Source: a virus
DNA: 24,884 nucleotides
Direction: 5' to 3' (one strand)
IMG/VR virus record: IMGVR_UViG_3300021963_000619
Span: 1-24,884 of that record
The notes below the pieces were generated by a model, which saw nothing but the letters and a program-made list of their open reading frames with translations, was not told the DNA's origin and ran no database searches. Below are positions 12,136 through 15,458 of the stretch, piece by piece. Position 1 is the stretch's first letter; every line of letters starts with the position of its first letter. The translations under genes were made by a program, and so were the position numbers.

Positions 12136-12303
12136 ATGGCTAGACACAAATCGGAAATCACAGGAAGCCCACTCAAAATCGCCACAAGAGTTACTTTTGA
12201 CCAATGGTTGGAGTTTCGCAAACTTGGCGGTTCTGTGTGGTTGAGAAACTTGCTCAAGAATTCGATGGAGAATCGAAAGAGTCAACTCAAGGAGAAAACA
12301 TGA
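12136..12303 (+). CDS. Ribbon-helix-helix-like regulator, 55 aa
   Basis: ATG 12136 to TGA 12301-12303. The product begins MARHKSEITGSPLKIATRVT (basic arm plus a beta strand), then FDQWLEFRKLGGSVWLRNLL, two helices joined by LGGS, then a charged tail. This is the size and pattern of Arc/CopG-type ribbon-helix-helix DNA-binding proteins. It lies in the divergent control region and is probably translated from a leaderless message. It is a good candidate for the repressor of the two facing promoters, possibly binding the TGTCWGACA palindromes. The last 4 bp overlap the next start. Confidence 0.7.
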   Translation: MARHKSEITGSPLKIATRVTFDQWLEFRKLGGSVWLRNLLKNSMENRKSQLKEKT

Positions 12304-12449
12304 AAAAAGTCATTATTGGCGCATACTTAGCACTTTCCAGCCTGACATTGTGGGCGGCTTGTTCAACCCATACTTACTATGCAAATGGTCGTTATGTGAC
12401 TTGCCAAACCTGTTGTTATGGGAACAATTGCAACACCAACTGCTATTGA
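12300..12449 (+). CDS. Secreted six-cysteine peptide, 49 aa
   Basis: ATG 12300 overlaps the previous stop, with AAGGAG six bases upstream. The product has a clear signal peptide, MKKVIIGAYLALSSLTLWA, followed by ACSTHTYYANGRYVTCQTCC and YGNNCNTNCY. The mature part is about 30 residues with six cysteines (21, 35, 38, 39, 44, 48). Cleavage could be by signal peptidase I after Ala19 or Ala20; the -3 Trp makes a lipobox unlikely but not excluded. In the periplasm it would probably be disulfide-bonded. The role is unknown; exclusion of other phages is one idea. Confidence 0.75.
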   Translation: MKKVIIGAYLALSSLTLWAACSTHTYYANGRYVTCQTCCYGNNCNTNCY

Positions 12450-12487
12450 TGTATGATTTAACGAAATGCTTGGCGGCATTATCGTAG
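12449..12487 (+). CDS. Possible 12-residue leader peptide before the terminator
   Basis: ATG 12449 overlaps the preceding TGA (TGATG), and the frame MYDLTKCLAALS ends at TAG 12485-12487. It crosses the first two pairing segments of the structured RNA that follows, so a translating ribosome would cover them. Coupling and position suggest a leader peptide. Length alone gives no statistical support. Confidence 0.3.
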   Translation: MYDLTKCLAALS

Positions 12488-12575
12488 TAGGGTTACACAT
12501 GAAGTCTGCTGGAACTACGCCAGTCCGCCAACATCCGAAAGGGTGAGACTTCAGGTGTAGCCCTTTTTTTTGGGC
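12471..12575 (+). ncRNA. Structured leader RNA with intrinsic terminator and alternative pairings
   Basis: The main stem pairs 12490-12507 with 12546-12563: GGG/CCC, one U-G, TACAC/GTGTA, one A-G mismatch, TGAAGTCT/AGACTTCA. It is followed by eight Ts (12564-12571). Its top is a three-way junction: hairpin CTGG/CCAG (12509-12512/12520-12523) and hairpin CATCC-GAAA-GGGTG (12532-12545) with a GNRA loop. TGGCGG (12471-12476) is perfectly complementary to CCGCCA in the junction (12525-12530). CGTAGT (12483-12488) is perfectly complementary to ACTACG in the first hairpin's loop (12514-12519). GCCC/GGGC (12560-12563/12572-12575) gives a further alternative. The replication gene starts five bases later with no clear ribosome site. 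Confidence 0.7.
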
Positions 12576-12580
12576 AAATT

Positions 12581-13291
12581 ATGCAAATCAAGAATTGGAA
12601 GAAGTTTCAGCACTTTAAAGACCGCAAACCACCTTGGGTAAAACTCTACAGGGATGTTTTAGACGATCTTGAGTGGTATGAATTAGACCCACTTGCTAGC
12701 AAGGTGCTAGTAATGTGCTGGCTTATTGCTAGCGAGGATGATGGCAAATTGCCACCAGCAAAAACTCTTGCATTTAGGCTAAGGATGACAGAAAAGCAAA
12801 CTATTGATTGCTTAAACAAGTTGTCTCACTGGCTGGAACAAGATGATATCAGCGTGATATCAGAACGATATCAAAGTGATAGTCTAGAGACAGAGACAGA
12901 GACAGAGACAGAGAAAGAGGTAGAGACAAAACAAAGAACAAAAGGCTCACGCCTTTCTGCTGATTGGGTTTTACCAAAAGAATGGGCAGATTGGGCAAGA
13001 CAGGAAAGACCTGATTTGGATTTGCGGAGTGTGGGTGAGCAGTTTCGAGACTACTGGAGTGCAAAAGCTGGTTCAGGCGCAACAAAACTGGATTGGCAAG
13101 CCACATGGAGGAATTGGGTTCGAAATCAGAAACAGTCTTACAAGCCTGTGGACATTGCAAGGGTAACAGTGCCTTCAAGCTCACAGCGTGACCCTGCGCT
13201 TGTCAAGCTGGATGAGGATAGGCTGAAGACTGCACCACCAAACCCTGAAGTTTTAGCCAAAATCAGGGCAGTTTTAGGGAAAACAGCATGA
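12581..13291 (+). CDS. Replication initiation/replisome organizer protein (lambda O/DnaT-like)
   Basis: The 236-residue product begins MQIKNWKKFQHFKDRKPPWVKLYRD and has a winged-helix-like N-terminal domain to about residue 88 (SKVLVMCWLIAS, LAFRLRMTEKQTIDCLNKLSHWL). A low-complexity Glu-Thr linker follows at 101-117, then a C-terminal domain with WADWARQERPDL...FRDYWSAKAGSG...LDWQATWRNWV. This two-domain pattern is well known in phage replication proteins that bind the origin and load the host helicase. The gene carries the 11-bp iterons and the purine tract in its linker region. No strong ribosome site precedes the ATG, and the gene lies directly behind the structured leader. Confidence 0.85.
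   Translation: MQIKNWKKFQHFKDRKPPWVKLYRDVLDDLEWYELDPLASKVLVMCWLIASEDDGKLPPAKTLAFRLRMTEKQTIDCLNKLSHWLEQDDISVISERYQSDSLETETETETEKEVETKQRTKGSRLSADWVLPKEWADWARQERPDLDLRSVGEQFRDYWSAKAGSGATKLDWQATWRNWVRNQKQSYKPVDIARVTVPSSSQRDPALVKLDEDRLKTAPPNPEVLAKIRAVLGKTA
12844..12887 (+). repeat. 11-bp iterons (TGATATCAGCG type), candidate replication origin
   Basis: Four units start at 12844, 12855, 12866 and 12877: TGATATCAGCG, TGATATCAGAA, CGATATCAAAG and the weaker TGATAGTCTAG. The first three each hold the palindrome GATATC. Spacing is exactly 11 bp, about one helical turn. Because 11 is not a multiple of three, the repeats are read in different frames and do not repeat the protein sequence, so selection must act on the DNA. 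Confidence 0.7.
12886..12927 (+). repeat. Purine-rich AGAGAC hexamer tract beside the iterons
   Basis: Four perfect AGAGAC units at 12886-12909, then AGAGAA, AGAGGT and one more AGAGAC, seven units in all. It is almost pure purine on the + strand and encodes the Glu-Thr linker of the replication protein. A strand-asymmetric tract directly after iterons is the arrangement of lambda-type origins. Confidence 0.75.
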
Positions 13292-13542
13292 TTCAAAAAC
13301 AAAATGCTCTTTTTGAAAAACTTGAAGAATCCTTTAGAGATGAGTGGAAAAATATGCCTGAATATGTGCAAGAAGATTTAACACCTTACAGAACAATCAA
13401 TGTCAGATTTAGAAATGCAGAAGATGTGGCAATTTTTGAACATTTGATGCAACAAAAAATTACTGAAAAACAAAAAACAATTTGGTTTCCTTTTGCCGAG
13501 CCTAGAATTGCATCAATTTACAGGTATGTAGATGAATCCTGA
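13288..13542 (+). CDS. Conserved hypothetical beside the glycosyltransferase, 84 aa
   Basis: ATGA-coupled to the replication gene. The product carries WKNMPEYVQEDLTPYRTINVRF, then RNAEDVAIFEHLMQQKITEKQKTIWFP and ends YVDES. The MPEYVQEDLxPYRTIxVxF and QKxTxKxKxIWFP blocks are familiar from small phage proteins that lie next to TAGT-type glycosyltransferases, as here (11-bp overlap). It may be a partner of that enzyme. No catalytic residues can be assigned. Confidence 0.8.
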   Translation: MIQKQNALFEKLEESFRDEWKNMPEYVQEDLTPYRTINVRFRNAEDVAIFEHLMQQKITEKQKTIWFPFAEPRIASIYRYVDES

Positions 13543-14401
13543 TTATCCAATTTACATTGTTTCTAAAGGTCGTTGGGAATCAAGGTTAACAAGCAAAGCA
13601 TTGGAGCGCATCAATGTGTCATACAAAATTATTGTTGAAGAACAAGAAAAAGATTTGTATGCCAGCGTGATTTCGAAAGACAAAATTTTGGTCTTGCCAA
13701 AAAATTATTTGCAAGAATATGAAACTTGTGATGAGTTGGGCAACACCAAGGGCGTGGGGCCGGGGGCGGCTCGCAACTTTGCTTGGCAACATTCCATTGA
13801 AATGGGTGCAAAACGCCATTGGGTCATGGATGACAACATCGCATCATTTAACCGCCTTAACCGCAATTTAATGTGCAAAGTAAGTTCTGGAACAATTTTT
13901 AGGGCATCTGAAGATTTTGTAGACCGATATGAAAATGTGGCAATTGCTGGATTTAACTATGATTTCTTTGCCAAAGCCAAAGAACAAATACCACCATTTG
14001 TGTTGAATACTCGCATTTACTCATTGCTTTTAATTAAAAATGATTTGCCATTCAGGTGGCGTGGTAGATATAACGAAGATACTGACCTATCATTGCGTGT
14101 CCTTAAAGCTGGTATGTGTACTGTTCAATTTAATGCGTTTTTGCAAGAGAAGGCTACAACACAAACATTAAAAGGTGGTAACACTGATGAGTTTTATGCT
14201 AAAGAAGGAACATTACCAAAATCACAAATGATTGCTGATTTGCACCCCGATGTGGCTAAAGTAGTTTGGAGATTTAATCGTTGGCATCATCATGTGGATT
14301 ACAGGGCGTTTAAAAAAAACAAGTTACAAAGAATTAAAAATATTTATATTCCTGATGTTGTTAACAATTTTGGTATGAAACTTGTGGAAATACAAAAATG
14401 A
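13532..14401 (+). CDS. TAGT-like (TET-associated) glycosyltransferase
   Basis: The 289-residue product starts NPDYPIYIVSKGRWESRLTSK, typical of the phage GT-A-fold family associated with TET/JBP dioxygenases. It has GVGPGAARNFAW (74-85), HWVMDDN with the likely metal-binding Asp-Asp at 100-101, and RYNEDTDLSLRVL (179-191) with the probable catalytic acid. It should transfer a sugar to an acceptor; in the named family the acceptor is a modified base in phage DNA. No TET/JBP dioxygenase is seen in this window, so either it lies elsewhere in the genome or the acceptor differs. The short ATGA overlap with the next gene marks one operon. Confidence 0.8.
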   Translation: MNPDYPIYIVSKGRWESRLTSKALERINVSYKIIVEEQEKDLYASVISKDKILVLPKNYLQEYETCDELGNTKGVGPGAARNFAWQHSIEMGAKRHWVMDDNIASFNRLNRNLMCKVSSGTIFRASEDFVDRYENVAIAGFNYDFFAKAKEQIPPFVLNTRIYSLLLIKNDLPFRWRGRYNEDTDLSLRVLKAGMCTVQFNAFLQEKATTQTLKGGNTDEFYAKEGTLPKSQMIADLHPDVAKVVWRFNRWHHHVDYRAFKKNKLQRIKNIYIPDVVNNFGMKLVEIQK

Positions 14402-14667
14402 CAAAAGAACAAGCACACCGCCTTTTGGATGAGGTCAAAGATGGGAACAGTTATCTATCTATCAAACGCATCACAGAAGCCTTGTGGCTCACAGGGGATG
14501 CGTTACGACCTGTACCAATCCACTCTAGACCATTTAGTGAAGATGGCATCAACGAATGGATGGAAAGCACACGCATGGCACAGAGCACAGGAACTGGAAC
14601 AGCATCCATTGGGAATTTTCAAGGGAATCAGTCAGGAATTAACGAAAATAATGAAAGCACAAAATGA
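14398..14667 (+). CDS. Small hypothetical with possible DNA-binding start, 89 aa
   Basis: ATGA overlap with the glycosyltransferase gene and 4-bp overlap with the next. The N-terminal part, KEQAHRLLDEVKDG, YLSIKRITEALWLTGD, looks like a short helix-turn-helix; the C-terminal third is Ser/Thr/Gly/Asn-rich and probably disordered. No family can be named with confidence. Confidence 0.7.
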   Translation: MTKEQAHRLLDEVKDGNSYLSIKRITEALWLTGDALRPVPIHSRPFSEDGINEWMESTRMAQSTGTGTASIGNFQGNQSGINENNESTK

Positions 14668-15458
14668 ATCCATTTCTGATAAATGAACCTACTTGCATCA
14701 GTTTTTCGGGTGGCAGGACATCAGCTTATATGCTTTACAGGGTCTTAGAAGCTCACCAAATGAGCCTACCAAATGAAACCTTTGTCATTTTTTGCAACAC
14801 AGGAAAAGAACACGAGTCAACTCTAAAATTTGTCAACGAATGCCAAAAGCGGTGGAATATTCCCATCTATTGGCTTGAATTCACAAGAAATACCGATAAA
14901 TTCGTAGAAGTCACTTACGAAACCGCATCCAGAGATGGTGAGCCTTTTGCTGAATTGATTAAACAAAAATCATTTTTGCCCAACTCAGTTATGCGATTTT
15001 GCACAACAGAACTAAAAATTAACCCAATTACTCGTTTTATGAAATCTAAAGGGTTTGAGGAATTTCAGACATTGGCAGGGATTCGTGCTGATGAACCTAA
15101 GCGAGTTGGAAAACTCAGGGAAACAGTCCATGCGCCTTTAGCATTGGCAGGGGTCACACAATCCGATGTCCAGCAGTTTTGGAAATCAAATGATTTTGAC
15201 CTTGGACTACAATTTGTTGACAAAATCACCCCTCTTGGAAACTGCGATTTGTGCTTTATGAAGGGCGCACATCAGCTAATGTCAATCATTCAGCATGAGC
15301 CAAACAGGGCTACTTGGTGGGCAAAACAAGAAGAAATCATTGGCGGCAGATTTTCAAAAGACCGCCCAACTTATGCGGCAATGAAACAATTTGGCAAAGA
15401 CCAAATAGATATGTTTGACGCTACAGAAGAAACAATAGCCTGTTTCTGCGGAGACTAA
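14664..15458 (+). CDS. PP-loop ATP pyrophosphatase, PAPS reductase/DndC-like
   Basis: The 264-residue product opens with CISFSGGRTSAYML, whose SGGRTS (15-20) is the PP-loop of the adenine-nucleotide alpha-hydrolase superfamily. VIFCNTGKEHESTL and GIRADEPKR (139-147) are further family marks. Cysteines at 113, 194, 197 (CDLC), 260 and 262 could hold an iron-sulfur cluster. The family activates a substrate by adenylation or reduces PAPS; phage members often sit with DNA-modification genes. It follows a DNA-glycosyltransferase-like gene, so a role in base or backbone modification is possible, but sulfur metabolism is equally allowed by the sequence. Confidence 0.8.
   Translation: MNPFLINEPTCISFSGGRTSAYMLYRVLEAHQMSLPNETFVIFCNTGKEHESTLKFVNECQKRWNIPIYWLEFTRNTDKFVEVTYETASRDGEPFAELIKQKSFLPNSVMRFCTTELKINPITRFMKSKGFEEFQTLAGIRADEPKRVGKLRETVHAPLALAGVTQSDVQQFWKSNDFDLGLQFVDKITPLGNCDLCFMKGAHQLMSIIQHEPNRATWWAKQEEIIGGRFSKDRPTYAAMKQFGKDQIDMFDATEETIACFCGD

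Follow-up and report, generated by a model that had tools for sequence, protein, structure and literature searches.

Translation control in the IncI-alpha plasmid ColIb-P9 involves the leader peptide repY, and the partner of the control loop is CGCC(AA). The title of a paper by Asano (1998), as listed in PMC10724649 and PMC7646527, assigns the hairpin loop 5'-rUUGGCG-3' to the replication control of this plasmid, and titles listed in PMC8383071 describe its copy number as set by competition between pseudoknot formation and antisense RNA binding. In the satellite phage P4, the CI RNA, which derives from the leader of the replication genes, pairs with the segments seqA and seqC and so brings about premature termination ahead of these genes, and in Gifsy-1 a single promoter gives both a read-through mRNA and a short terminated RNA, IsrK, which acts in trans (PMC4825925). 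Plasmids pIP501 and pT181 set their copy number by RNA-controlled premature termination in the leader of the rep mRNA (PMC4981023); reference titles in the same source name loop-loop contacts and a U-turn as important.

The DNA analysed here, called the window, is a stretch of 24,884 nt from a virus (IMG/VR record IMGVR_UViG_3300021963_000619) and carries a leader RNA directly before a replication gene (Table 1). As with the repZ leader and Inc RNA of ColIb-P9, a UUGGCG hairpin loop is found in a long-range pairing in front of a replication initiator gene. The systems differ in their output, which is translation under a separate antisense RNA in the plasmid and a terminator in the window RNA. 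In the latter, the sense leader serves as its own complementary RNA, and there is a further, variable pairing (PK). Set against the features of ColIb-P9, the window RNA also shows a G-U bias that points to the plus strand, and lacks a conserved leader ORF.

As in P4, an RNA that comes from the leader and can pair with parts of it was found before replication genes. Unlike CI, c4 and IsrK, however, the window RNA ends at its own intrinsic terminator and not by processing, and it carries both halves of the pairing. The controller of pIP501 and pT181 is an antisense RNA from convergent transcription, whereas the strand and covariation of the window RNA point to a sense RNA. By analogy, the attenuator logic proposed below resembles that of ColIb-P9, pIP501 and P4 CI.

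Layout of the leader RNA and its promoter

Table 1. Features of the leader RNA region in the window, and members of a second RNA class in other contigs
Feature	Position	Strand	Description
Promoter-like element	12428-12457	+	−35 TTGCAA (12428-12433), 18-nt spacer, −10 TATGAT (12452-12457); 9 of 12 consensus matches
12-codon frame of the preliminary description	12449-12487	+	Not a functional part; contains the −10 box; stop at codon 4 in relatives
Whole RNA	12463-12571	+	About 109 nt; from promoter position, terminator, family alignment, covariation and match to model R1
P0 hairpin	12465-12480	+	Stem 12465-12469/12476-12480, hexaloop UUGGCG (12470-12475)
UUGGCGG	12470-12476	+	5' half of the long-range pairing; partner 12525-12531
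PK segment CGUAGU	12483-12488	+	Pairs with P2 loop (12514-12519); adjoins P1 5' arm
P1 terminator stem	12490-12563	+	12490-12507 with 12546-12563; 18 positions, A.G mismatch 12499/12554
P2 hairpin	12508-12524	+	GCUGG/CCAGU, loop AACUACG (12513-12519)
CCGCCAA	12525-12531	+	Single-stranded between P2 and P3; 3' half of the long-range pairing
P3 hairpin	12532-12545	+	CAUCC-GAAA-GGGUG; covariation
U-tract	12564-12571	+	Eight T in the window sequence; end of the terminated RNA
Weak Shine-Dalgarno-like GGG	12572-12574	+	Between U-tract and ATG; absent from the terminated RNA
Replication gene	12581-13291	+	Primosomal/DnaD-like initiator, 236 aa; phrog_3992 primosomal protein (1.3e-18), phrog_26426 replication protein (3.6e-15)
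Class II RNAs	L059:2883-2990; L361:1533-1640; L362-L377		

The RNA is predicted to start near 12463-12465 and to end with the U-tract, which was seen in nearly all family members. Stem P1 encloses P2 and P3, and in the terminated fold CCGCCAA is unpaired, with both 5' segments and both their partners exposed, except for the P0 base in the window member. The fold energy of the window RNA was −46.8 kcal/mol, compared with −32.7 ± 3.3 kcal/mol in shuffled sequences (z −4.3), and for 12488-12575 the z-score was −4.7. The preliminary description had listed TGGCGG (12471-12476) as complementary to CCGCCA (12525-12530) and CGTAGT (12483-12488) as complementary to ACTACG (12514-12519). Both complementarities are present, the first extending over 7 bp (UUGGCGG:CCGCCAA) and not the 6 bp given before. 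The eight Ts of the terminator were likewise confirmed, and its stem, counted earlier as 17 bp, comprises 18 positions with one mismatch. The UUGR at the start of the P0-loop segment UUGGCGG fits the U-turn motif YUNR.

Among 125 homologues, a −10 box with at least five of six matches was present in 76%, against 28% in shuffled sequences, and was mostly located 9-13 nt before CTTGGCGG. With this promoter, transcription would begin at or just 5' of the P0 5' strand.

The 12-codon frame ending at TAG (12485-12487), to which a regulatory role had been ascribed, is present in the window but is not a conserved feature. Its ATG (12449) lies just 5' of the −10 box, which falls inside the frame, and precedes the point at which the RNA is predicted to begin. 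Two close relatives with an RNA near-identical to that of the window (L007 and L049) read ATG TAT GAT TAA at this position, with a stop at codon 4; the replication protein of the first is 97% identical to that of the window. An upstream ATG with a frame open across the loop occurred in only 46 of the 125 members, and no conserved translated leader ORF was found inside the transcript in these members. The gene preceding the RNA (window 12301-12449) encodes a small protein that is rich in cysteine and has an N terminus resembling a signal sequence, and the 3' end of the gene overlaps the RNA promoter; in several relatives the RNA follows sequence ends similar to that of this gene (e.g. GGAACAATTGCAACACCAACTGC).

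The replication gene had been described as lacking a clear ribosome site. This has to be revised, given the weak GGG motif in the window (Table 1) and the SD-like, GG-rich motif that 85 of 96 members have behind the U-tract. Pairing is possible between GCCC (12560-12563) and GGGC (12572-12575). A post-terminator hairpin of this GCCC/GGGC type exceeded its own shuffle in 76 of the 96 and, because many members are without it, was not treated as essential. In many members, though not in all, the sequence that follows the U-tract is a repeat of the first bases of the P1 5' arm, and the terminator 3' arm could pair across the U-tract (GCCC-U8-GGGC).

Distribution and covariation of the RNA family

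A search with the window replication protein yielded 80 viral contigs, in many of which the same RNA directly precedes the replication gene. Pattern scans located the RNA before other genes as well and in many further contigs, bringing the collection to at least 128 distinct sequences. A covariance model (R1) was built for the family, together with an alignment of 50 diverse sequences (A2). Exactly one copy per record was found with R1 in the 26 records checked, which include a Polynucleobacter genome (L208/L352) and a betaproteobacterial MAG. Divergent copies were present in two more genomes of the same taxonomic family. Wider scans gave matches in 3 of 398 genomes of the family, 1 of 369 of the class and 1 of 398 of the phylum, each count including the prophage genome itself.

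In BLAST searches of phage, plasmid and E. coli records, the only real relatives were environmental phage records. The window RNA matched no Rfam family at gathering or permissive thresholds, where weak chance matches alone appeared, nor was it matched by the covariance models of c4 antisense RNA (RF01695) and int-alpA RNA (RF02996). Positions 12463-12571 on the plus strand belong to a widespread phage RNA family that is absent from Rfam.

For the structure of Table 1, including the two pseudoknotted helices, 96.3% of the cells in A2 were paired, against 77.9% in shuffles, and 397 two-sided changes were counted against 97. None of 500 shuffles equalled the observed score, and slid partners were paired in 31-41% of cases, compared with 96%. 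Compensatory changes were found in PK, in the UUGGCG:CGCCAA pairing, and in P0, P1 and P3. Both sides vary at four of the five stem pairs of P0, at six of seven in PK, at 16 of 18 in P1 and at four of five in P3. P2 is invariant in A2 and reads GCCGG/CCGGU in the divergent copies from bacterial genomes (L353 and L354).

PK was complementary in 83 of 84 distinct RNAs over 4-8 bp (at least 6 bp in 78) and fell into 39 different types, its distance to P2 always being 18-20 nt. It is the fastest-changing helix, yet still complementary. The idea of a rate far above that of P1 lost ground in a symmetric control, in which its turnover per base pair was only about 1.3 times that of upper P1, a gap that could be within reach of drift.

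The UUGGCGG:CCGCCAA pairing, paired in 100% of the cells in A2, looked invariant because the first pattern scans required it. A later scan that dropped this requirement retrieved UUGACGG/CCGUCAA, UUGGAGG/CCUCCAA, UUGGUGG/CCACCAA and UUGGCAG/CUGCCAA, always compensated. The P0 loop is UUGGCG in 107 of the 128 collected RNAs and a compensated variant in the other 21. Outside two mismatch-prone positions, P1 contains 48 G-U against 2 A-C, an excess which identifies the plus strand as the RNA.

Judged by this covariation, the long-range pairings are real and strongly selected. Taken by itself, covariation is compatible with pairing in cis or in trans. That homologues would keep the pairings had been put forward as the check on the preliminary description, and in 50 homologues they are kept by compensating changes instead of being broken without them. 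The same changes support its claim of a leader RNA with alternative pairings that meet a terminator just before the replication gene.

The head of the replication module

In most cases no more than 20 nt separate the RNA from the replication gene that follows it, and these genes belong to several unrelated families. Genes immediately downstream encode DUF1376 primosomal proteins, DnaD-like loaders, O-like and Lin1244-type initiators, a primase and a ParB-like protein; others encode short unknown proteins. No single gene family thus defines the position of the RNA; its constant feature is that it stands at the head of the replication module. In L032, L041, L050, L054 and L058, an endonuclease gene of the GIY-YIG or HNH-like type is located exactly between the RNA terminator and the replication gene, and the same insertion was also recorded for L044, L153, L220 and L231. 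With these insertions, the junction of RNA and replication gene looks as if it were a homing target.

A homologous replication gene in L059 is preceded by a different RNA, consisting of a long 5' hairpin followed by a terminator hairpin. In all 14 distinct members of this class II, the 7-nt loops of the first hairpin and of the terminator hairpin are perfect complements of each other, with seven different loop sequences and a shuffled expectation of 2.4 out of 14. The terminator loops of all seven types start with the U-turn motif YUNR, and the P0 loops of class I, the family of the window RNA, always begin with UUGR. Class II RNA was not detected by model R1 and had no match in an Rfam search, and the class II pattern with one loop fixed returned only chance matches. 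On these comparisons, class II is unrelated in sequence to class I and follows the same complementary-loop rule at the same site.

The same site is occupied by int-alpA RNA (RF02996) before homologous replication genes in L016 (2900-2975), L020 (2054-2122) and L067 (2908-2977). It shares with the window RNA the slot and a loop with its complement a few nucleotides downstream. It differs in sequence and structure, no U-tract terminator was seen and R1 does not detect it. In the int-alpA-like RNAs of these phages, the complemented stretch measures 6-7 nt and its complement lies near the start codon.

A TET-associated glycosyltransferase gene (PF20691) and a PAPS-reductase-like gene lie close to each other (window 13532-14401 and 14664-15458), which suggests modified DNA bases in the window phage.

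Predicted folds and candidate regulation

Fold energies were computed in transcript order, pseudoknot energies being left out. As long as the P1 3' arm is missing, the long-range-paired fold was the predicted minimum in 79 of 84 RNAs, and in 38 of 50 its energy was lower than that of the P0/P2 fold. After about 8 nt of the P1 3' arm (median) it was overtaken by the terminator, which ended about 14 kcal/mol lower. As the full-length terminator is so much more stable, read-through in cis, if dependent on pairing, must be kinetic. By a geometry estimate, PK is 0-1 nt from the base of a P1 of about 19 pairs (about 53 Å) and the P2+PK rod measures about 31 Å, so that PK and a complete P1 would exclude each other in one molecule. 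The RNA has alternative structures, one of them an intrinsic terminator, with mutual exclusion predicted from this geometry.

We propose, with confidence evenly balanced between yes and no, that the RNA is a conserved attenuator with a promoter of its own, which controls by RNA-RNA recognition whether transcription enters the phage replication module. Regulated read-through, the direction of the effect, action in trans and a role in copy number or immunity are what we infer from the patterns described above. In the nascent RNA, P0 and the PK segment would pair with the single-stranded CCGCCAA and the P2 loop. This cis-paired state would favour read-through into the replication gene, because it is incompatible with a complete P1. 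With the 5' segments occupied, P1 would close and transcription would stop at the U-tract. The terminated RNA would expose both complementary segments without being able to pair them within itself, which would make it a natural competitor in trans for the 5' loop and favour termination. More phage copies would then give more terminated RNA, more termination and less replication protein, and the terminated RNA probably acts in trans as a self-made feedback on the expression of the replication gene.

The PK sequence would set the specificity, so that a phage would be sensitive to its own RNA but ignore the RNAs of other phages. Cognate duplexes averaged −18.3 kcal/mol, compared with −13.1 kcal/mol for non-cognate ones (mean gap 5 kcal/mol). 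The fast change of PK and this gap fit trans action and do not prove it. Loops that change fast and are always complementary suggest that the phage uses the RNA to limit or tune its own replication. More tentatively, and with our judgement leaning somewhat to the negative, the two unrelated classes of freshwater-phage RNA may have converged on a self-recognition attenuator through which a phage would sense how many copies of itself are present and shut out relatives with a matching loop type. A short sense RNA with a hypervariable loop would match only its own leader and would act when the initiator is made.

A switch working only in cis, between the pseudoknotted nascent fold and the terminator, would make the terminated RNA a by-product and leave the outcome to how fast the polymerase moves, to a host factor or to a phage protein. 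Cis pairing alone satisfies the covariation, folding predictions give the cis alternative at a stage when the terminator arm is yet to be made, and the invariant P2 and the G.U junction pair could be a protein site. However, the complementary segments exposed in the terminated RNA mark intermolecular loop recognition, as do the fast PK turnover, the U-turn-type loops and the convergent second class, and we regard a cis-only switch as unlikely, while still deserving serious attention.

The RNA could also be a stand-alone small RNA acting on other targets or a self-complementary homodimer. Its terminator would then do no more than end it, and transcription of the replication genes would come mostly from promoters further upstream, by read-through. 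It has its own promoter and terminator and occurs once per phage, and the near-constant P1 length and PK spacing are what a rigid antiparallel dimer would need. Its tight placement, mostly within 20 nt of replication genes of several families, would remain unexplained, which makes this improbable.

The putRNA of HK022, a structured nascent phage RNA of about 70 nt, prevents termination and does so without protein factors (PMC9378689). A put-like mechanism, in which the RNA would bind RNA polymerase and suppress termination, is nevertheless very improbable here, as the structure of the window RNA contains the terminator itself. Hypervariable complementary loops are not known from putRNA. A small-molecule riboswitch, one alternative named in the preliminary description, would suit a compact pseudoknotted RNA with an expression platform before genes. 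Nearly all conserved nucleotides are paired, however, the long-range helices vary freely, no conserved unpaired ligand pocket was present in the A2 alignment and there is no Rfam match, so that a metabolite riboswitch has little to recommend it. The mechanism first suggested, attenuation through a ribosome that translates the 12-codon frame as a leader peptide, is hardly credible, for although the frame covers both segments in the window, it contains the −10 box, begins ahead of the predicted transcript, is closed at codon 4 in relatives and is not conserved.

Regulatory RNAs of phage replication are known from few laboratory systems. The two RNA families were previously undescribed, and one of them, present in more than 100 phage sequences and in a Polynucleobacter prophage, is tied to the replication module whatever the initiator. 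If the self-recognition model were true, the loop sequence alone would predict which phages interfere within one cell, and loop types would be the phage counterpart of plasmid incompatibility groups.

An integrase was found in only three of 24 phage contigs examined, so that lysogenic immunity is unlikely to be the general function of the RNA. Setting the dose of the replication gene, and interference among relatives that infect the same cell, would fit either lifestyle. The Polynucleobacter copy of the RNA lies within a lambda-like region with the order divergent repressor-like gene, small gene, RNA, replication gene and DnaC-like loader, the gene names being assigned by reading translations. 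Repeated CAACA/TTGTTG-like words occur in this prophage about 60 nt upstream of the RNA, overlapping its promoter, and could be repressor operators.
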